Below are positions 50,393-63,171 of a DNA stretch of 64,000 nucleotides, piece by piece. The stretch comes from Pseudomonadota bacterium (GTDB lineage Bacteria; Desulfobacterota; Binatia; UBA9968): assembly GCA_021324155.1 (NCBI GenBank), contig JAJPJQ010000018.1:1-64000 (forward strand), given 5' to 3'. The position numbers and the translations under genes were made by a program. The notes beneath the pieces are model-generated. The model was not told the DNA's origin. It did not search any database and saw only the letters and a program-made list of their open reading frames with translations. The number at the start of each line of letters is the position of its first letter. Position 1 is the first letter of the stretch.

Positions 50393-51391
50393 ATGGACAA
50401 CCCTCGATCGATTGAAGAGATTAACGTCCTGTGGGTTACCGCCGGTCTCGGTTGCGATGGCGATTCTGTGGCGATGACCGCGGCCGGACAGCCGAGCATC
50501 GAAGATATCGTGCTCGGCGGAATTCCCGGAATTCCAAAGGTGAATTTCTATCATCCGCTGTTCCACCCTGAGGCCGGGGACGATTATGTGCGGTACTTTC
50601 ATTCCGCCGCGGAAGGAAAGATGTCGCCTTTCATTCTCGTGATCGAAGGGTCCATACCAAACGAAAAAAATAAGGCGGAAGGCTATTGGGCGGCAATGGG
50701 CCGCGATAAGACAACGAACCAGCCGATTCCAACGTGCGACTGGATCGATCGTCTGGCGCCGAAGGCATGGGCAGTGTTGGCTGCAGGCACCTGTGCGACC
50801 TACGGCGGCATTCACGCGATGGAAGGTAACCCGACCGGCTGCATGGGACTGCCGGATTATCTCGGCTGGGAGTGGAAATCGCAGGCAGGCATTCCGATCG
50901 TCTGCGTGCCGGGTTGTCCCGTTCAGCCGGATAATTTCATGGAGGCCTTTCTGTATTTGCTGCGACAGGCTGCCGGCGGCGCGCCAATGATTCCGCTCGA
51001 CGATGCGCTGCGACCGACATGGCTTTTCAGCGCGACGATCCACGAGAACTGCGACCGCGGCGGTTACTATGAGCAGGGCGATTTCACCGATAAATACGGG
51101 AGTCCGCACTGCATCGTTAAATTGGGCTGTTGAGGCCCCGTCGTTCAGTGCAACGTCGGTAAACGTGGCTGGATGAATGGCCTAGGCGGTTGCCCCAACG
51201 TCGGCGGTATTTGCATCGGCTGCACGATGCCCGGCTTCCCGGACAAATTCATGCCATTCATGGATCAGCCTCCGGGTTCTTTTCTGTCGTCTCATGCGAT
51301 CACGACATACGGCAAGGCGATCCGCGCGCTGCGTCGGTTCACGCAGGCGTCGCTTAACAAGGAGCCTGACCGCGGGCGCCGCGGATCGTGA
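50393..51391 (+). CDS. hhyS: Group 1h [NiFe]-hydrogenase small subunit with in-frame TGA codon
   Basis: The small subunit carries the FeS relay. Proximal-cluster positions are C21, D24 (LGCDGDS), C134 and C175; the Asp in place of Cys is typical of actinobacterial-type group 1h enzymes. H217, C220, C240 and C246 fit the distal cluster; C253, C267, C274 and C277 include the medial ligands. No Tat signal is present. Codon 247 (51131-51133) is TGA, just after C246 in IVKLGC and before GPVVQCN, and the frame continues intact to a second TGA at 51391 (332 codons). Other family members have Trp, Lys or Arg there (from memory). Recoding, a nonsense mutation or a sequence error are possible. Confidence 0.93.
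51138..51159 (+). promoter_or_regulatory. Hairpin just after the in-frame TGA of hhyS
   Basis: CCGTCGTT and AACGTCGG pair with one T-T mismatch around the 6-base loop CAGTGC. The loop begins 12 bases after the TGA. The GU in the loop and the mismatched U in the stem recall bacterial SECIS elements. The distance is shorter than in known examples, and GC-rich coding sequence forms such stems by chance. I list it only as a candidate. Confidence 0.25.
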
Positions 51392-51467: not shown

Positions 51468-53237
51468 ATGGCTGAGACAACGTCCGACAAAAACAAGCTG
51501 GTCGAAATGACCTGGGACCCGATCACGCGTGTGGTCGGCAGCCTCGGTATTCACACGAAAATCGACTTCGGCCGCCGCGAGGTGATCGAGTGTTATACCA
51601 CATCGTCGATTTTCCGCGGCTACAGCGTCTTCATGCAGGGTAAGGACCCGCGCGACGCTCACTTCATCAGTAGCCGCATCTGCGGCATCTGCGGCGACAA
51701 CCATGCGACATGCTCGGTGTACACACAGAACATGGCTTACGGCGTGAACCCGCCGCGACTCGCCGACTGGATCATCAATCTCGGCGAAGCAGCGGAGTTC
51801 ATGTTCGACCACAACATCTTCCAGGAAAATCTCGTCGGCGTCGATTTTTGCGAGAAGATGGTACGCGCGACCAATCCCGGCGTCTGGGAACGGGCCGAGA
51901 AGACCGAGGCGGCGCATGCGGCCGACCACGGCTACAGAACCATCGGCGAGATCATGTGCGCGCTGAACCCCTTCGAGGGCGAGTTTTATCGCGAAGCGCT
52001 CCAGATGAGCCGCGTCGCGCGCGAGATGTTCTGCCTGATGGAAGGACGGCACGCTCATCCGTCGACGCTCTACGCCGGCGGAGTCGGGACGGTCGCAACC
52101 GTTCAGCTTTTTACCGAATACTTGACGCGGTTGATGCGCTATATCGAATTTCTTAAACGAGTCGTGCCGTTGCACGACGATCTGTTCAATTTTTTCTACG
52201 ACGCGCTGCCCGGCTATGACAGAGTCGGCGAGCGCCGCATCATGCTCGGCTGCTGGGGCTGTTTCCAGGAGCCGCAGGCGTCGAACTTCCGCTACAGCGA
52301 CATGACCGAGTGGGGTCAGAAGATGTTCGTCACGCCGGGCATCATCGTCGACGGCCGCCTTGTGACGCGCGATCTCGTCAAGATCAATCTCGGCATCCGA
52401 ATTCTCCTGGGAAGCTCATTTTACGAAGACTGGGAGGGCAAAGATTTGTTCGTCACGACAGATCCAGTCGGAAATCCAGTCGACAAACGCCACCCGTGGA
52501 ACCAGCACACGATCCCCAAGCCGCAGAAGCGCGAGTTCGGCGGTAAATACAGCTGGGTGGTCGCGCCGCGGTGGTTCGACGGGCACGACCATCTAGCGCT
52601 CGACAGCGGCGGCGGGCCGCTGGCGCGTCTCTGGTCTACGGCGCTGAGCGGTCTGGTCGATATCGGATATATCAAAGCGACTGGCGAAGGAATCGTCATC
52701 AACCTGCCCAAGACCAATACCAAGCCGGAAACGACTTTCGAATGGAAGATCCCCGGGCGCAATAACACGATCGAGCGCAACCGCGCGCGCAGCTACTTTC
52801 AGGCGTACGCCGCCGCCTGCGCCCTTTATTTCGTCGAGCAGGGCTTGAAGGAAGTTAACTCTGGAAAGACAAGCACGTGGGAGCCTTTCACGGTGCCGAA
52901 AGACGGCATCGGTTGCGGCTTCACGGAAGCGGTCCGCGGCATGCTATCGCATCATATGGTGATTCGCGACGGCAAGATCGCTAATTACCACCCCTATGCG
53001 CCCACGCCGTGGAACGCGAGCCCGCGCGACAGCTACGGCACACCGGGCCCTTACGAAGACGCAATTCAGGGTCAACCGATTTTCGAGGAAAATCCTCCGG
53101 ATAAATTCAAAGGCATCGACATCATGCGCACCGTCCGGAGCTTCGACCCGTGCCTGCCCTGCGGCGTGCATATGTATTTGGGCGGCGGCAAGGTGCTGGA
53201 GAAGCGGCACTCGCCGACGCTGTTCCATCCCGAGTGA
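51468..53237 (+). CDS. hhyL: Group 1h [NiFe]-hydrogenase large subunit
   Basis: This 589-residue subunit holds the NiFe(CN)2CO site. The N-terminal ligand motif is RICGICGDNH near residue 69. The C-terminal motif is DPCLPCGVH near 558, followed by a 21-residue tail (MYLGGGKVLEKRHSP...) that the maturation protease should remove after His. No selenocysteine codon is present. Long family-specific stretches (CWGCFQEPQASNFRYSDM, EGKDLFVTTDP) resemble high-affinity, oxygen-tolerant H2-oxidising enzymes. It starts 77 bp after hhyS, with a GGGGAAG RBS. Confidence 0.95.
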   Translation: MAETTSDKNKLVEMTWDPITRVVGSLGIHTKIDFGRREVIECYTTSSIFRGYSVFMQGKDPRDAHFISSRICGICGDNHATCSVYTQNMAYGVNPPRLADWIINLGEAAEFMFDHNIFQENLVGVDFCEKMVRATNPGVWERAEKTEAAHAADHGYRTIGEIMCALNPFEGEFYREALQMSRVAREMFCLMEGRHAHPSTLYAGGVGTVATVQLFTEYLTRLMRYIEFLKRVVPLHDDLFNFFYDALPGYDRVGERRIMLGCWGCFQEPQASNFRYSDMTEWGQKMFVTPGIIVDGRLVTRDLVKINLGIRILLGSSFYEDWEGKDLFVTTDPVGNPVDKRHPWNQHTIPKPQKREFGGKYSWVVAPRWFDGHDHLALDSGGGPLARLWSTALSGLVDIGYIKATGEGIVINLPKTNTKPETTFEWKIPGRNNTIERNRARSYFQAYAAACALYFVEQGLKEVNSGKTSTWEPFTVPKDGIGCGFTEAVRGMLSHHMVIRDGKIANYHPYAPTPWNASPRDSYGTPGPYEDAIQGQPIFEENPPDKFKGIDIMRTVRSFDPCLPCGVHMYLGGGKVLEKRHSPTLFHPE

Positions 53238-53258
53238 TCGCCGATTCTCGACTTAGTC

Positions 53259-53867
53259 ATGCTGGAAGAGACGCAAGATCAGAAAACGTCCGGTCGCGAT
53301 ACCGAAGAACACTGCGATATTTGCGCACAGCGCGTCGGCGGCGAGCATCCGCATGTGGTCGACCTCAAAACGCGGCGGCTTTTGTGCGCCTGCCGCGCGT
53401 GCCATTTTCTCTTCGGCGCGGGCGGTGAAAAGTACCGCTCGGTTCCCGGCGAATGCTTCCACGCGCCCGATTTAATGATCTCCAATTTGCAGTGGGACAG
53501 ACTCGAAATCCCCGTCGGTATCGCCTTTTTCTTCTTCAACAGCTCGGCGCGCCGGACGGTTGCCTTCTATCCGAGCCCCGCCGGCGCGATGGAATCTCTG
53601 CTGCCGCTCGATGCGTGGAACGACATCGCTATGGCGAGCCCGCGGCTCCGCGGTCTCCTGCCCGACGTCCAGGCGCTGCTCGTCCGCAAGACCGGCGACG
53701 GCTTCGACTGTTATATCGTTCCGATCGACGCCTGCTATGAGCTCGTCGGTCTGATCCGTCTCGGCTGGCGAGGCTTTGACGGCGGCGAAAAAGTTCGCGC
53801 CGACATCGAATCGTTTTTCGCCCGTCTGCGCGCGCGCAGCGGGAATCCGGCTCAAAGCGCAGCCTAG
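53259..53867 (+). CDS. Hydrogenase-associated Cys-rich protein (DUF5947-like)
   Basis: The 202-residue protein lies 22 bp after hhyL. Its N-terminal part has a Cys pattern CDIC and CACRACHFLF, with His between, suggesting a metal or FeS site. The rest (GIAFFFFNSSARRTVAFYPS, LIRLGWRGFDGGEKVRADIE) resembles proteins I recall beside group 1h hydrogenases and filed as DUF5947. It may be an electron-transfer or assembly factor. The gene ends 2 bp before the next. The DUF assignment is from memory. Confidence 0.75.
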   Translation: MLEETQDQKTSGRDTEEHCDICAQRVGGEHPHVVDLKTRRLLCACRACHFLFGAGGEKYRSVPGECFHAPDLMISNLQWDRLEIPVGIAFFFFNSSARRTVAFYPSPAGAMESLLPLDAWNDIAMASPRLRGLLPDVQALLVRKTGDGFDCYIVPIDACYELVGLIRLGWRGFDGGEKVRADIESFFARLRARSGNPAQSAA

Positions 53868-53869
53868 CG

Positions 53870-55195
53870 ATGGCGGAAGTCAAACAGACTTTGGACTTGT
53901 CGGCGGCGCGGCGTATCGCCGACGCCGTCCTCTACGAGGGCTATGTCCTCTATCCTTACCGCGCCTCGGCGCAGAAAAATCGCTTGCGCTGGCAATTCGG
54001 CATCATCGCGCCGCGGGCGGATAGCGGCGCGGCGGGAGAGCCGTGGGAGATGCAAACCGAGTGTCTGCTGGAAGGTTCCGCCGATACGGTCATTCATGTG
54101 AGAGCGCGTTTCTTGCAAGTTCAATCACGCACGGTCGAGCAAGCGGCGGAGCGCGGCTTCACTCGGGTCGATGCGCTGATCGCCGGCGACGCGACGATCG
54201 TGCCGTGGGAGGAAGGCATCGAGCGCGAGGTCGATGCGGTGCTGACGAGTGGCGAACTTCTTCACGCGGCGAAAATCATTCCCTTCGAGATCGCCGCCGT
54301 CGAAAAGATGGAAAATGTATTCAGCGAAGGCGGAAGGCTTATCGGCAGGATCGTGCGCCAGACGTGGAATCTTACGGGAAAATTAGTGATCACCGCCGAG
54401 ATGATCGATGCGCCTGCGCCCGCCTTGAAGCTCGGCGTGCGCGTCGAGAACGACTCGTTGGGGGGCAATGGCTGCGACGGTCGCGACGAAGCGCTCCGCC
54501 GCTCGTTCATCGGCGCGCACTTCATGCTCGGCGCCGAGGCGGGAAGCTTCATCTCGCTCATCGACCCGCCCGCATGGGCGGCGCAAGCCGCTGCGGCCTG
54601 CGCCAATCTGCGCGCCTGGCCGGTTCTCGTCGGTGATCGCACCCGGCGCGATATGATGCTGGCGGCGCCGATCATCCTTTACGATTACCCCGAGATCGCG
54701 CCGGAGAGCCGCGGCGATTTCTTCGACGCGACCGAGGTCGATGAGCTGCTGACACTGCGTACCATGACACTGACTGACGAAGAGAAGCGGGAGGCGCGCG
54801 ACACCGACGCGCGCGCCGCGGCGATATTGCGTCGCGTCGACAAGATGACGCCCGAGATCATGGGCGAACTTCACGGTGCTATCAGAAGCCGACGCCAAAC
54901 CGCGGTGGCGGAGCGCCCCGTCATGATCGACGGCGTCGCGGTTGGGCCCGGAAGCCGCGTACGTCTCCATCCCGGAGCCCGGCGCGCCGACGCCCAGGAC
55001 ATGTTTCTGGAGGGGCGGGTTGCGACGGTCGAGCAAATACTGGTCGACGCGGAAAAGCGGACCTATCTGGGAGTGACACTCGTTGACGACCCGGCGGCCG
55101 ATCTGCATCAGTGGTACGGTCGGTTTCTTTATTTCTCGCCCGACGAAGTGGAACCCTGGGAGACATCATCGAAGGCAGTGGGCTACGGCAAATAA
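53870..55195 (+). CDS. Hydrogenase-operon protein of unknown function
   Basis: This 441-residue soluble protein starts 2 bp after the DUF5947-like gene and ends 8 bp before the protease gene. It opens RRIADAVLYEGYVLYPYRAS and has a central beta-rich part (LITAEMIDAP-like segments, FIGAHFMLGAEAGSFISL), then AAPIILYDYPEIAPESRGDF. A C-terminal beta domain resembles an SH3-like barrel (VGPGSRVRLHPGARRADAQD). I recall similar proteins only in group 1h hydrogenase loci. No catalytic motif is recognisable. A role in cofactor delivery or complex assembly is inference. Confidence 0.78.
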   Translation: MAEVKQTLDLSAARRIADAVLYEGYVLYPYRASAQKNRLRWQFGIIAPRADSGAAGEPWEMQTECLLEGSADTVIHVRARFLQVQSRTVEQAAERGFTRVDALIAGDATIVPWEEGIEREVDAVLTSGELLHAAKIIPFEIAAVEKMENVFSEGGRLIGRIVRQTWNLTGKLVITAEMIDAPAPALKLGVRVENDSLGGNGCDGRDEALRRSFIGAHFMLGAEAGSFISLIDPPAWAAQAAAACANLRAWPVLVGDRTRRDMMLAAPIILYDYPEIAPESRGDFFDATEVDELLTLRTMTLTDEEKREARDTDARAAAILRRVDKMTPEIMGELHGAIRSRRQTAVAERPVMIDGVAVGPGSRVRLHPGARRADAQDMFLEGRVATVEQILVDAEKRTYLGVTLVDDPAADLHQWYGRFLYFSPDEVEPWETSSKAVGYGK

Positions 55196-55203
55196 GGTTC
55201 GGC

Positions 55204-55695
55204 ATGCAGAAAAAAGTGCTCATCGCCGGCATCGGCAATATCTTTCTCGGGGACGACGGTTTCGGCGTCGCGGTAGCCAAGCGGCTGATGGGAATGACAC
55301 TGCCGCCGTGGGTCACCGTCGTCGACTTCGGTATCCGCGGGATTCATCTCGCATACGAGATGCTCGAAGGCCGGTATGCTTCGGCGATTCTCATTGACGC
55401 CGTCCGGCGCGGTGGCCGGCCGGGAACGGTTTATGTCATCGAGCCGGACATCGGCGAAATCGAAGCAAACGGCGGCTCCGACGCGCACGGCATGGATCCA
55501 GCGACAGTTCTCGCCATGCTGAAGACGCTCGGCGGAACGCCGGGAAAGATTTACATCGTTGGCTGCGAGCCGGCGTGCGTCGACGAGGTTGTCGGGCTCA
55601 GTCGGGAGGCGACGCACGCCATCGACGATGCGACCGAGCTGATCCTTAAGATTCTCTGGTGCTCGGACGCGGCGGCTGGCGCTCGCGACGGTTAA
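55204..55695 (+). CDS. Hydrogenase maturation endopeptidase (HyaD/HybD type)
   Basis: The start at 55204 (MQKKVLIAGIGNIFLGDDGF) is the family N-terminus; the longer track ORF overlaps the previous gene. At 163 residues it has the GIGNIFLGDDGFG motif with the metal-binding Asp and Glu-like positions, the central FGIRGIHLAYEM and VGCEPA segment. It should cut the C-terminal extension of the large subunit after nickel insertion. The upstream gene ends 8 bp before, and hypA follows after 5 bp. Confidence 0.92.
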   Translation: MQKKVLIAGIGNIFLGDDGFGVAVAKRLMGMTLPPWVTVVDFGIRGIHLAYEMLEGRYASAILIDAVRRGGRPGTVYVIEPDIGEIEANGGSDAHGMDPATVLAMLKTLGGTPGKIYIVGCEPACVDEVVGLSREATHAIDDATELILKILWCSDAAAGARDG

Positions 55696-55700
55696 TCAGC

Positions 55701-56051
55701 ATGCACGAGTTCGGTTTATGCGAGGCGATCGTGGACGCCGTGTGCCGCCGGGCCGCCGGCCGGCGAGTGGCGCGCGTGCGCGTCCGCATCGGCGCCATGC
55801 ATCGCGTGGACAAGGAATCTTTCCGACAGGGTTTTTCCTGGGCCGGAAGCGAGACCGAGGCGGCAAATGCCGCGGTCGATCTTATTGTGACGGCGGTGCG
55901 AGCCGTTTGCGCTTCCTGCCAGACCGAGGCGACATTCGAGGAGTCCGCAACGTTGTGCCCGCGTTGCGGCGCGGCGGATATGAACATCGTGCAGGGGAAC
56001 GAGCTGATACTCGAATCGATCGAATACGCCGAAGAATCGACTCCGCTATGA
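55701..56051 (+). CDS. hypA: Hydrogenase nickel incorporation protein HypA
   Basis: The start at 55701 gives MHEFGLCEAIVDAV, with the nickel-binding N-terminal MHE motif. The 116-residue protein has a zinc site CASC...CPRC. It inserts Ni into the large subunit, normally with the GTPase HypB. No hypB lies in the operon. The stop overlaps the hypF start by 4 bp. Confidence 0.95.
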   Translation: MHEFGLCEAIVDAVCRRAAGRRVARVRVRIGAMHRVDKESFRQGFSWAGSETEAANAAVDLIVTAVRAVCASCQTEATFEESATLCPRCGAADMNIVQGNELILESIEYAEESTPL

Positions 56052-58327
56052 AAGAGCGGCGGCAAATTCTCGTCGAGGGCGTGATTCAGGGGGTGGGTTT
56101 TCGTCCATTCGTCTACCGACTCGCGACGAAAAACCGTCTCGCCGGGTCGGTCGTCAACGACGGGAGCGGCGTTGTCATCGAGCTGGAAGGCGAGCGCGCA
56201 CACCTCGACGATTTTCTCTCCGATCTGCGCGAGCATCCGCCGCCGCTGGCGTCGATCGACCGCATCGTCCACGGCATCATCCCGACGATAGGAGAAACGG
56301 GCTTCCGCATCGCGGAGAGCCGCTGCGAGGACGAGCGTCGGGCGCTGGTGACGCCCGACGTGGCTGTTTGCGACGAGTGTGTGGCCGAGCTTTTCGATCC
56401 AAACGACCGACGCTATCGTTATCCGTTCATTAATTGCACAAATTGCGGCCCGCGCTTCACCATCGTGCAGAACGTTCCGTACGATCGGAAAGCCACAACG
56501 ATGTCGGACTTCTCGATGTGCGCTGAGTGCCGGCGCGAGTTCGATGATCCCGCCGACCGGCGCTTCCACGCGCAGCCGAACGCATGCGCACGCTGTGGAC
56601 CGAGCGTCAGTCTACTCGATTGCCACGGACATATCGTTCACGATTCAGATCCGATTCGGGCCGTCGCCGCTCTCCTCAGCAACGGCGCGGTCGTGGCGGT
56701 CAAAGGTCTCGGCGGTTATCACCTCGCGTGCGATGCGTTCGATGAAACGGCGGTTCGGAAATTGCGAAAGGGAAAGAGGCGCGAAGAAAAGCCGTTCGCT
56801 CTCATGGCGCGCGATCTCGGCGACGTGCGCTCGCTTTGTTTCCTTGAGCCTGCGGAAGAGGCGCTGCTGCGTTCGGGCCAGCGGCCGATTGTCTTGCTCA
56901 AAAGACGCGCGTCTGCTGGCGTCGCGCCGGGGGTCGCACCGGGGCAGCTGCATCTCGGAGTGATGCTGCCGTATACGCCGCTGCATCATCTGATGCTCCA
57001 AGCTGCCGATCGGATTTTGGTGATGACGAGCGGCAATTCGAGCGAGGAGCCGATCGCTTGCGAAGACGCCGATGCGGTTCGCCGCTTGAGCGGCATCGCG
57101 GATTACTTCCTCGTGCATGATCGTAAAATTCAGGCTCACTGCGACGATTCGGTCGTCCGCTTCGCCGGCCGAAACGAGCTCATCATCCGCCGCGCACGCG
57201 GCTATGCCCCGCGGCCAATCGCGGTTGCCGAGGCGTTCGCCGCGCATGTCCTCGCCTGCGGCGCCCATCTGAAAAACACTTTCTGCCTGGGAAAAGACGA
57301 CCGGGCTTTTGTGAGCCAACATATCGGCGATTTATCAAATTTCGAAGCATTCACCGCCTTCGCGGTGGAGATCGATCGCTATCAGCGACTCTTCGACATC
57401 GAGCCCAGGCTTGTGGCGCACGATCTACATCCAAGGTATCTCTCGACCCAATACGCGCTGGACCTTCCAGGCGTTACTCGGGTACCTGTTCAGCACCATC
57501 ACGCGCATATCGCGAGCTGCATGGCCGAGCATGGGCTGGAAGGGCCGGTTATCGGCGTCGCCTTCGACGGGTTGGGCTACGGCGCCGATGGCGCTATGTG
57601 GGGTGGCGAATTTTTAATCGCCACGCTGCGTCGCTACGAGCGCTGCGCCCATTTGCGCTACGTCCCGCTCGCCGGCGGCGACGCTGCGGTGCGCCAGCCG
57701 TGGCGCGCGGCGCTCGCGTATATGACGGATGCTCTGCCGGACGATCCGCTCTCGATCGGTCTGCCTGGGTGGAATGGCATATCAAAAGACAAATTTAGTC
57801 TGGTGCAGTCCATGATGGCGCGGGGAATTAATACAGTCCCGACTTCATCGTGCGGGCGCCTGTTCGACGCCGTGGCCTCGATCTTGGGCTTGCGTCATGA
57901 AGCCAGTTACGAAGGCCAGGCCGCGGTGGAGCTGGAGACCGCCGCCGGTGACGGCGTGGAAGGCGAATATCCCTTCGAGATTTACGAAAGTGGCTGCGCG
58001 GAAATCGATCTGCGGCCTGCGATCCGCTCGATTGTGGGCGATGTGATCGACGGGCTCGACACCTCTGTCATCGCGGCGCGATTTCACAACACCGTCGTGT
58101 CGATTGTCGTTACGGTCTGCGAGCGGCTGCGCAGGCGCGAAGGTTTGCGACAGGTGTGCTTGAGCGGCGGGACCTTCCAAAACGTCTATCTTCTCGAACA
58201 CACCATCCCGCGCCTGGAGAGTCGCGGCTACGAAGTTTTCCGGAATATTCGGGTGCCGCCGAACGACGGCGGAATCTCCTTCGGCCAAGCCGCGGTGGCG
58301 AACGCGACGATTCGGGAACGAGACTGA
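56048..58327 (+). CDS. hypF: Carbamoyltransferase HypF
   Basis: The ATG at 56048 (MKERRQILVEGVIQGVGFRP) overlaps hypA by 4 bp; the track ORF beginning at 55718 is a read-through of another frame. The 759-residue enzyme has an acylphosphatase domain (about 1-90) and two zinc fingers near 110-180 (CDEC...CTNC, CAEC...CARC). A YrdC-like domain and a Kae1-like domain with QHHHAHIAS near 481 follow. It makes the CN ligand of the NiFe site from carbamoyl phosphate, transferring to HypE. Confidence 0.95.
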   Translation: MKERRQILVEGVIQGVGFRPFVYRLATKNRLAGSVVNDGSGVVIELEGERAHLDDFLSDLREHPPPLASIDRIVHGIIPTIGETGFRIAESRCEDERRALVTPDVAVCDECVAELFDPNDRRYRYPFINCTNCGPRFTIVQNVPYDRKATTMSDFSMCAECRREFDDPADRRFHAQPNACARCGPSVSLLDCHGHIVHDSDPIRAVAALLSNGAVVAVKGLGGYHLACDAFDETAVRKLRKGKRREEKPFALMARDLGDVRSLCFLEPAEEALLRSGQRPIVLLKRRASAGVAPGVAPGQLHLGVMLPYTPLHHLMLQAADRILVMTSGNSSEEPIACEDADAVRRLSGIADYFLVHDRKIQAHCDDSVVRFAGRNELIIRRARGYAPRPIAVAEAFAAHVLACGAHLKNTFCLGKDDRAFVSQHIGDLSNFEAFTAFAVEIDRYQRLFDIEPRLVAHDLHPRYLSTQYALDLPGVTRVPVQHHHAHIASCMAEHGLEGPVIGVAFDGLGYGADGAMWGGEFLIATLRRYERCAHLRYVPLAGGDAAVRQPWRAALAYMTDALPDDPLSIGLPGWNGISKDKFSLVQSMMARGINTVPTSSCGRLFDAVASILGLRHEASYEGQAAVELETAAGDGVEGEYPFEIYESGCAEIDLRPAIRSIVGDVIDGLDTSVIAARFHNTVVSIVVTVCERLRRREGLRQVCLSGGTFQNVYLLEHTIPRLESRGYEVFRNIRVPPNDGGISFGQAAVANATIRERD

Positions 58328-58328
58328 T

Positions 58329-58600
58329 ATGTGTCTCGCGATACCTGGAAAGATCCTTGAGATATTCGACTCCGCCGGCCTTAGAATGGCACGGGTCGAG
58401 TTCGGCGGCATAGCGCGCGACGCCTGTCTGGAGCTGGTGCCGGAGGCGGCTGTGGGCGACTATATAGTCGTGCACGTCGGCTTCGCCATCAGCAAAGTCA
58501 ATCGTGAGGAAGCCGAGCGTAGTTATGCCCTGCTTGACGAGATGGGTCAACTGGACGAGCTTCAAGCCCCTCTCATCGAGGAGGAGAAAACGCGGAAGCG

Positions 58601-58604
<4 letters not shown>
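58329..58604 (+). CDS. hypC: Hydrogenase assembly chaperone HypC
   Basis: This 91-residue protein begins [12 protein letters not shown], with the essential Cys2 that binds the Fe(CN)2CO unit. It forms a complex with HypD and delivers the iron group to the large subunit. It starts one base after the hypF stop and overlaps hypD by 4 bp. Confidence 0.96.
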
Positions 58605-59722
<1,118 letters not shown>

Positions 59723-59724
59723 CC

Positions 59725-60318
59725 GTGACGCAGCCGATGCGGGAAAAGATTCTACGCAAATGCCGCGAGTCGGTCGCGGTGCAGGAAAAGTTTTTCGACC
59801 AACACGCCGACCTGATCGGCGCGCTCTGCGAAGAGATGGCGGCGCGATTCCAGCGCGGCGCCAGGCTCTGGGTCATGGGCAACGGCGGAAGCGCGTGCGA
59901 CGCGCAGCACGTCGCGGTCGAATTCGTCCATCCGATTATCGACAAACGCCGGCCGCTGCCCGTCCTCGATCTCACCAGCCAAGTACCGATCTTGACCGCG
60001 ATCGCCAACGACAAGGATTTCAGCCGCGTTTTTGTCGATCAGATCGAGCTCAGCGGCCGCGCGGACGACATGGTGCTCGCGCTTTCGACGAGCGGCCAGT
60101 CGGCGAATCTAATCTACGCGCTCGGCGCCGCGCGAAAAAAAGAAATGCTCACGATCGCCCTCGCGGGCAAGGACGGCGGGCGTATCGCCGAGAGCGCCGA
60201 GTACTGCTTCGTCGTGCCGAGCTTCAGTATCCATCGCATTCAGGAATGCCACGTCGCGCTGCTGCACATCATCTGGGACCTCGTCCATGTCGCGATGGGA
60301 GAGGAGGACGTTGTCTGA
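59725..60318 (+). CDS. SIS-domain phosphoheptose isomerase-like protein (GmhA-like)
   Basis: I chose a GTG at 59725, which has GGAG five bases upstream; an ATG at 59737 is possible, and the track start lies inside hypD. The 197-residue protein has GmhA landmarks (FFDQHADLIGALCEEMA, LWVMGNGGSACDAQHVAVEF, ALSTSGQSANLIYAL). It sits between hypD and hypE with a one-base overlap to hypE. Similar genes occur in other group 1h operons as I recall. Its hydrogenase role is unknown. Confidence 0.88.
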   Translation: MTQPMREKILRKCRESVAVQEKFFDQHADLIGALCEEMAARFQRGARLWVMGNGGSACDAQHVAVEFVHPIIDKRRPLPVLDLTSQVPILTAIANDKDFSRVFVDQIELSGRADDMVLALSTSGQSANLIYALGAARKKEMLTIALAGKDGGRIAESAEYCFVVPSFSIHRIQECHVALLHIIWDLVHVAMGEEDVV

Positions 60319-61385
60319 TGGCGACCAACGGAACCGCGCCCGATCCTCTCAACGGCAGCTGTCCCGTACCGATCGCCGAGCACGGCCGGATCGTGCTCGG
60401 TCACGGCAGCGGCGGCAAGCTCAGCGGCGAACTTTTGCAGGACATTTTCCTTCCGGCCTTCGATAACGAGCATCTGGCGCGTCTCGGTGATCAGGCGATG
60501 CTGGACGTCAATAGAACGCGGCTCGCTTTCACGACCGACTCATTCGTTGTGACGCCAATCTTCTTCCCCGGCGGCGACATCGGCCAGCTGGCGATCAACG
60601 GCACGATCAACGATCTTGCGATGGGCGGCGCCCGCCCTCTCTACATCGCGGCGGCTTTCATACTGGAAGAGGGACTGGAAATCGATGAGCTTCGACGTGT
60701 GGTCGAGTCGATGCGCGCCGCGGCCGCCGCAGCCGGCGTGCAAGTCGTGACCGGCGACACCAAAGTCGTGGAGCGCGGCAAAGGCGACAAGCTCTTCATT
60801 ACCACGACCGGCCTGGGCATCGTCGATAAGCCGGTGGCGATCTCCGCCGATCGGGCGCGGCCCGGCGATAAAGTGATCCTCAGTGGCACGATCGGCGACC
60901 ACGGCATGGCGATCATGTCGCGGCGCGAAAACCTCGAGTTTGAGGGAACTATCGAGAGCGACAGCGCCGCGCTCAACGGCCTCGTTTCCACCATGATAGC
61001 TGCAAGCCCGGATATCCACTGCCTGCGCGACCCAACGCGAGGCGGCGTCGCTACGACGCTGAACGAGCTGGCGGTTGCTTCGGCGGTGGGAATCGAGATC
61101 GACGAGAAGGAAATTCCTGTCCGGGAAGCCGTCAGAGGCGCGTGCGAGATCATGGGTCTCGATCCGCTTTACGTGGCAAACGAAGGAAAGCTTGTGGCGA
61201 TCGTCGCGCCGGACGCGGCGGATTCGATTTTGTCCGCCATGCGCTCGCATCCGTTGGGAAAAGATGCCGCAATCGTCGGTGAAGTCCTGGCGGAGCATCC
61301 ACGAATGGTGGTGTTGAAAACCACGATCGGCGGGAGACGCATCGTGGATGTTCTGTTCGGAGAGCAATTGCCGCGCATCTGTTGA
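60318..61385 (+). CDS. hypE: Carbamoyl dehydratase HypE
   Basis: The ATG at 60318 overlaps the isomerase stop (TGATG); the track ORF from 59586 is another frame joined in front. The 355-residue protein has RIVLGHGSGGKLSGELLQD, the ATP-binding FTTDSFVVTPIFFPGGDIG and TRGGVATTLNELA. It ends in PRIC, whose terminal Cys receives the carbamoyl group and becomes thiocyanate for the NiFe CN ligand. It is the last gene of the hydrogenase operon. Confidence 0.96.
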   Translation: MATNGTAPDPLNGSCPVPIAEHGRIVLGHGSGGKLSGELLQDIFLPAFDNEHLARLGDQAMLDVNRTRLAFTTDSFVVTPIFFPGGDIGQLAINGTINDLAMGGARPLYIAAAFILEEGLEIDELRRVVESMRAAAAAAGVQVVTGDTKVVERGKGDKLFITTTGLGIVDKPVAISADRARPGDKVILSGTIGDHGMAIMSRRENLEFEGTIESDSAALNGLVSTMIAASPDIHCLRDPTRGGVATTLNELAVASAVGIEIDEKEIPVREAVRGACEIMGLDPLYVANEGKLVAIVAPDAADSILSAMRSHPLGKDAAIVGEVLAEHPRMVVLKTTIGGRRIVDVLFGEQLPRIC

Positions 61386-61434
61386 GACCGTTTATTGAAG
61401 TTTGACGGAAACCTTTAGATTTTAATTGCTGCTT

Positions 61435-63171
61435 ATGACCGCCGAAAAAAACAAGACGTTTCTGCCGGGATTCGAAAGGTTCCTTGCCGGCGACGGCCGG
61501 CCGCCGGAGGTATCCGAGGCGATCGATGTCCTTGAAGATCTCGCCGGCTTCTTTCTCGACGCGCGCGTCGAAGCGAATCGAATAAGCCGAGCGCGCTCGA
61601 ACGATTACGAGACGATCTACCGCATTCTCGCAGAGCAGATCCCCGCCGTCGTGTTTCTTGCCTTCCTCGACGAAGGATTCGGTCAGGCATATGTCAGTCC
61701 GCACATCGAGACCGTGCTCGGCTTTACCCAGCAAGAATGGCTCAACGACCCAGTGCGCTGGTACAAGCAGCTGCACCCCGATGACAAAGAAAGGTGGAGC
61801 CGTGAAGCGGCCGAGATGTTTCTATCCGGCGCGCCGCTCAAGTCCACTTATCGTGTCATCGCCCGGGACGGGCACACGGTATGGTTTCAATGCGACGCGC
61901 GCATGATCCGTCACGACGACGGAAGTCCCTGGCTGGTGCACGGGGTCGCGTTCGATATCACAGAGCTGAAGGAATCGCAGCACGCGCTCGCGCGCGATGT
62001 CGCAGAACGCCAGCGCCTTGAGCGGCAGCTCTTGCAAGCGCAGAAGATGGAAAGTATCGGCACCCTTGCGGGCGGAATCGCGCACGACTTCAACAATATA
62101 TTGAATATTATTCAGGGATATTCCGCGCTGATTATGGAAACCTCGGGGGATCGGCGGAAGCTCCGCGAGAACGTCCAAGTCATTCGGGAAACCGTCGAGC
62201 GGGGCGCCGTGCTGGTCCAGCAGCTGCTGACGGTCGCGCGCAAGACCGAAGTCAAATTCGAGCCCGTCGACATCGATGAGTTGCTGCGCAAAGTCGCCAA
62301 ACTGACGGGCGAGACCTTTCCCAAGACGATCACGATCTCGCTCGAATTGCATTCGAATCTCCCACGAACGCAGGCGGATCCGAACCGGCTGGTACAGGCG
62401 CTGCTCAATCTATGCGTCAATGCGCGCGACGCGATGAATGAGAGCGGAACGCTGACGCTGCGCAACGGCATCGTCTCCGGAAGTGACCTTCGGCATCGAT
62501 TCCCGGATGCGGACGAGCAGCGGTATGTCTCGGTTGCTGTCGCAGATACAGGCCCGGGAATGGAAAAAAACATTCGCGACCACATCTTCGATCCATTTTT
62601 CACGACCAAAGAACCAGGTAAAGGCACCGGGCTAGGTCTGCCGATGGCGTATAGTATAGTGCGGGATCATAATGGCTTCATCGACGTGCAAAGCGAGCCG
62701 GGACGAGGCACGACCTTCTGCATTTACATTCCTTTGATTATTCCCGACGCGGGGAAAAGCGTCGTTCAAGAACTTGCGATAAATGAGATGCAAAGAAGCC
62801 AAGAAAGCGGTCAAACGGTTCTTTTTGTCGAAGACGAACCCCACCAGGTCAACCTGATCCGCGACTTCTTGGAGCGGAGCGGTTATCGGGTGCTGATAGC
62901 ACGGGACGGCGTGGAGGCGGTGAAAATTCACCATCATCACAGCGACCAGATCGCGGCCGTCATTCTGGATTTATCATTGCCCAAGCTCAACGGATGGGAC
63001 GCTTTTTTATCCATTAAGCAAAAGCAACCCACGGTGCGGACCATCTTGGCTACGGGCTATATAACTCCGGATCAACGCTCAATGATGTTGAGTGAAGGCG
63101 TGATCGATATACTTCCCAAGCCTTACGTGCCAAACGATCTACTAAAACGGCTCCGCGAGGTCATAACTTGA
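61435..63171 (+). CDS. Hybrid histidine kinase (PAS-HisKA-HATPase-REC)
   Basis: I chose the ATG at 61435 over the TTG at 61426. The 578-residue protein has a PAS domain at about 60-180 ([20 protein letters not shown]), HisKA with His in [13 protein letters not shown] near 216, HATPase motifs ([25 protein letters not shown]) and a C-terminal receiver with Asp near 510 ([13 protein letters not shown]). No transmembrane helix is seen, so it is a cytosolic sensor. It lies 49 bp after hypE and may sense redox or H2-linked signals, which is inference. No output regulator is adjacent. Confidence 0.93.

Follow-up and report, generated by a model that had tools for sequence, protein, structure and literature searches.

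What does an in-frame TGA signify when it stands inside an otherwise intact [NiFe]-hydrogenase small-subunit gene? The question is raised by a stretch of 64,000 nucleotides (referred to as the window) from the Binatia assembly GCA_021324155.1, in which a group 1h (HofK-type) small-subunit gene at 50393..51391 on the plus strand comprises 332 codons when read through a single internal TGA. An initial annotation, made from the letters alone, had listed selenocysteine (Sec) or other recoding, stop-codon suppression, a recent TGG-to-TGA nonsense change and a sequence error as possible answers. The branch of nonsense change or error has been strengthened by an ancestral TGG codon, whereas reassignment of UGA to Trp and a suppressor tRNA-Trp find no support and Sec lacks support specific to the site. 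A nonsense change or a sequence error is likelier than Sec at codon 247, and the probable explanation is a very recent TGG-to-TGA nonsense change in the sole group 1h small-subunit gene of this genome.

The interrupted small-subunit gene

The frame opens with the ATG at 50393 and meets the TGA at 51131..51133 (plus strand) as codon 247, just as the initial annotation had placed it, after which 85 further codons and the terminal TGA (51134..51391, plus strand; second TGA at 51389-51391) follow without decay. The product matches PF01058 and PF14720, and the match to the latter crosses the stop, scoring 80 bits with the whole protein versus 32 bits with the truncated form. Read with TGA as Trp, the small subunit aligns from residue 6 to 326 with HofK of Ralstonia eutropha, an actinobacterial-type enzyme of group 1h (PDB 5aa5_A, the best PDB match; E=1.4e-164). 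The earlier claim of 85 codons retaining ligands and family features beyond the TGA was reproduced. The two proteins share the LGC-W-GPVVQCNV context and the set of cysteines past the stop, and differ in that HofK has a Trp codon where UGA stands at position 247 here. An open and fully conserved frame past the stop is not explained by chance, and, judged by HofK similarity and ligand cysteines, membership of group 1h would be assigned only to the protein read through the TGA.

Cysteines occupy positions 21, 115, 134, 150, 171, 175, 220, 240, 246, 253, 267, 274 and 277 of the read-through product. By homology with canonical small subunits, we take H217, C220, C240 and C246 to be the ligands of the distal cluster and C253, C267, C274 and C277, all located beyond codon 247, to be those of the medial cluster, an assignment that agrees with the original placement of the TGA after distal Cys246 and before the medial cysteine region. 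A product ending at residue 246 would accordingly retain the distal-cluster ligands and lose all four medial-cluster cysteines, the same loss that had been foreseen for an enzyme made without read-through. The gene is present as a single copy in the genome assembly (4.8 Mb, 53 contigs, 98% complete). Rescue of function by a second intact small-subunit copy was also considered and rejected, as the assembly contains none.

The ancestral codon and its surroundings

Alignment of group 1h small subunits, proposed from the start as a check, gave Trp at column 247 in 79 of 79 homologues, and the homologous codon is TGG in all 80 related loci (79 distinct, one Dino_bin29 contig having been counted twice), which span Acidobacteria, Planctomycetes, Chloroflexi, Verrucomicrobia, Proteobacteria and one actinobacterium. 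The TGA is therefore a single transition away from an invariant Trp codon. Neither Cys nor Sec occurs at this column among the 79 group 1h homologues, and three aligned [NiFeSe] chains carry Lys there. A search of related genomes for TGA at the same site, also suggested in the initial annotation, came back empty for the 80 loci, and searches at family and phylum level gave no further small-subunit match with a stop. The genus of the window is represented in the genome set by this genome alone. The only other genome of the same family found to carry the enzyme is 'Deltaproteobacteria bacterium Dino_bin29' (L002/L081/L172), whose HofK homologue is 81% identical and has an equal set of cysteines, but has TGG at the site and belongs to a locus in which 2 kb, including a gene for a PAS-domain histidine kinase, separate the two subunit genes.

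The small subunit deviates at none of 124 conserved columns; where conservation is 98% or more, it deviates at 0 of 82 columns before the stop and 0 of 41 after it, and 70 of the 79 residues compared past the stop are identical to those of the Dino_bin29 homologue. On either side of the stop, differences to the nearest homologues are more often synonymous than amino-acid-changing; since synonymous sites are saturated relative to Dino_bin29 and dS is unusable for dN/dS, the column-conservation tests were used alone. The complete lack of deviations at conserved columns implies that the stop is very young, or not real, or read through.

A stop that is not real would mean a wrong consensus base, or a minority strain allele picked by the assembler, in an organism that has TGG and a normal hydrogenase. 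Such an artefact would fit both the small subunit without a single deviation at conserved columns and the open hyp operon, and it could have arisen in a genome that is a draft of 53 contigs, at a place that probably once read TTGGGGCCCC; this G4C4 palindrome, present in locus L018 too, may be awkward for polymerases and base callers. On the other hand, the quality of the assembly looks good, the 80 ABC-transporter and 40 SDR family matches all being free of internal stops, and a substitution error is uncommon at normal coverage, leaving this explanation unlikely, though one to be taken seriously.

How UGA is read in this genome

In the sampled stretches, long frames end in TGA more often than in any other stop (129 of 292), and RF2 is present in the genome, which together indicate that UGA ends translation here. 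The stop-free 120 ABC-transporter and SDR matches likewise speak against a general reading of UGA as Trp. The G24A change in tRNA-Trp (Hirsh-type) is a known UGA-reading change. The only tRNA-Trp found is of normal form, with anticodon CCA, a 5-bp anticodon stem (CCGGA/TCCGG) and G24; a 4-bp anticodon stem in tRNA-Trp has been shown to aid UGA reading (PMC13092985). With its CCA anticodon, 5-bp stem and G24, this tRNA is thus without the known UGA-reading changes. Two broader explanations were rejected, namely a genome-wide code with UGA as Trp, which is ruled out by RF2, the frequency of TGA as a stop and the CCA anticodon, and a suppressor tRNA-Trp, whose signature is missing from the 5-bp stem and G24. 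A codon-score scan of 525 kb for other broken genes gave too many artefacts from antisense and adjacent genes to yield a rate.

UGA is the leakiest of the bacterial stop codons, a property that favours programmed or leaky read-through by tRNA-Trp, which would restore Trp at codon 247 and supply enough full-length subunit, perhaps while keeping expression low. Trp as the ancestral residue and the conserved downstream frame point the same way. Against this stand the tRNA-Trp itself, with neither the shortened stem nor G24A, and the 80 related loci, in which no relative uses TGA at the site, so that read-through as Trp is regarded as improbable.

Selenocysteine machinery and the hairpin downstream of the TGA

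The genome search for selA, selB, selD and tRNA-Sec that had been recommended was run and found all of them. The tRNA-Sec (anticodon UCA, 74.8 bits) lies near the end of contig C16 (L085 253-347), and a selA-selB-selD cluster lies on the minus strand of the same contig (L146 6188-10695); SelB and SelD match TIGR00475 (412 bits) and TIGR00476 (392 bits), respectively, while SelA was identified by eye, without a profile search, from the sequence adjoining selB. SelD carries a TGA of its own at the classical Sec site (AAG-U-AAKL, with U for the TGA), as do two formate dehydrogenase alpha subunits (FdhA), encoded on contigs C48 (ARV-U-HSSS, L135) and C38 (ARI-U-HSSS, L136). The FdhA of contig C38 is preceded by a twin-arginine-like leader. 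From this gene content, the uncultured genus evidently decodes UGA as selenocysteine.

The initial annotation had held that close relatives with TGG, combined with a lack of Sec machinery, would reduce the site to an error or a simple nonsense mutation. The relatives do have TGG, in 80 of 80 loci, but the Sec system is present, and absent machinery therefore gives no ground for dismissing the site. With only half of it borne out, that rule does not decide the matter; what weighs against Sec is the lack of Cys homologues and a hairpin at background level.

The hairpin in question (51141..51176, plus strand) carries the apical loop CGGUAA at 51157-51162, 23 nt past the TGA, and conforms to the bacterial SECIS (bSECIS) model taken from PMC13188914 in its loop, its distance from the UGA and a folding energy below -7.5 kcal/mol. 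The same model is also satisfied by 22% of random codons taken from window genes (130 of 600) and by 19% of the TGG homologues (15 of 79), and, when the peptide is recoded synonymously, 244 of 400 versions (61%) form an equally strong hairpin. The whole region folds 1.4 standard deviations below shuffles, and the upper stem reaches -1.1 kcal/mol versus -10.3 and -13.8 kcal/mol for the two FdhA hairpins of the genome. Since roughly a fifth of random codons satisfy the model, and the real Sec site of the genome's own SelD does not, SECIS scoring was dropped as proof; synonymous-site tests did not single out the real FdhA hairpins either. The hairpin after the TGA thus meets the SECIS model no better than background.

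The idea that the organism's own Sec machinery decodes this UGA, using the hairpin as SECIS and putting Sec in place of Trp at position 247, would draw on a system that is complete (selA-selB-selD, tRNA-Sec(UCA), a TGA-containing SelD and two such FdhA), on a hairpin that fits a published model and on a fully conserved downstream part. As in genuine selenoprotein genes, the UGA is in frame and has conserved coding sequence on both sides; Cys or Sec homologues at the site and a UGA in more than one independent sequence, two further marks of such genes, are absent. Known selenoproteins have Cys-containing homologues (PMC12013277), new ones arise mostly from redox-active Cys forms (PMC1794560), and a lone TGA without further support counts as no more than a candidate, given that it may be a sequencing error (PMC1088965). 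Here column 247 is Trp in all 79 homologues, the TGA occurs in one genome alone, the hairpin is at the level of random codons, TGG homologues and synonymous versions with an upper stem that is weak beside those of FdhA, and no role is evident for a Sec adjoining a cluster-ligand Cys. The hydrogenase resembles SelD and FdhA in having an in-frame TGA in a genome with SelA, SelB, SelD and tRNA-Sec, but their TGAs stand at classical Sec sites (AAG-U-AAKL, QAR-U-HSSS) and that of the hydrogenase at an invariant Trp. [NiFeSe] hydrogenases are likewise hydrogenases with an in-frame TGA; in them Sec binds nickel and belongs to the large subunit, whereas here the TGA is in the small subunit and the large one has none. 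Overall, Sec at codon 247 is judged very unlikely.

The stronger proposal, that Sec now occupies a position once held by Trp, next to a distal-cluster ligand, in a selenoprotein that had no Cys ancestor and came into being when one transition altered a Trp codon upstream of a chance SECIS-like hairpin, is highly improbable. Were it true, a Trp codon could be the starting point of a selenoprotein, contrary to the rule of origin from Cys forms, and this genome would be a sensible place to test the idea, as its Sec system is present and, with three selenoprotein genes, apparently in use.

A probable nonsense change in a hydrogenase operon

According to the favoured reading, a very recent nonsense change, a single base turned TGG into TGA, whether in the organism as a whole or in a fraction of its population. 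Most rounds of translation would then be stopped by RF2 at codon 247, leaving a product of 246 residues that has the distal ligands, lacks the four medial cysteines and would provide little or no working enzyme; full-length subunit would otherwise come from ordinary low-level UGA leakage alone. We infer that the base is real, termination dominant and the enzyme lost. The absence of decay past the stop agrees with a change so recent that no other damage has yet accumulated, although the undecayed small subunit and the open operon fit an error or a read-through gene equally well. If the nonsense reading holds, a hydrogen-oxidising operon has been caught at the first step of its loss, which would be an ordinary but clean example.

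Some weak support for this reading may come from the large subunit (HofG-type; 51468..53237, plus strand), whose gene is open, with the catalytic Cys motifs RICGICG and DPCLPCGVH intact. It carries 9 private substitutions, among them W431R, C272S, P203A and P511A, at columns without variation among the 53 other sequences, the highest number among the 54 sequences, as compared with 4-6 in similarly isolated large subunits; the excess is small and the comparison set short of near relatives. These changes hint at relaxed constraint without proving it, and to that extent would back a nonsense change.

The genes that follow, all on the plus strand, are open as well, in line with the original description of an intact neighbourhood. 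They encode a DUF5947 protein (53259..53867), a protein of 441 aa that matches neither Pfam nor NCBIfam and has relatives at just a few further hydrogenase loci (53870..55195), a hydrogenase maturation protease of the HycI/HupD type (55111..55695), HypA (55659..56051), HypF (56048..58327, start set from the domain match), HypC (58329..58604), HypD (58601..59722) and HypE (60312..61385; TIGR02124, 481.7 bits). HypB was not recognised among the operon genes scanned (51468-61385), and a SIS-domain gene, GmhA-like by eye, lies between hypD and hypE. At the end of the operon, a PAS-domain histidine kinase is encoded at 61426-63171 of the window; the kinase situated between the small- and large-subunit genes of Dino_bin29 (L172) has a clearly similar PAS stretch, and from this arrangement the kinase is possibly a linked regulator.
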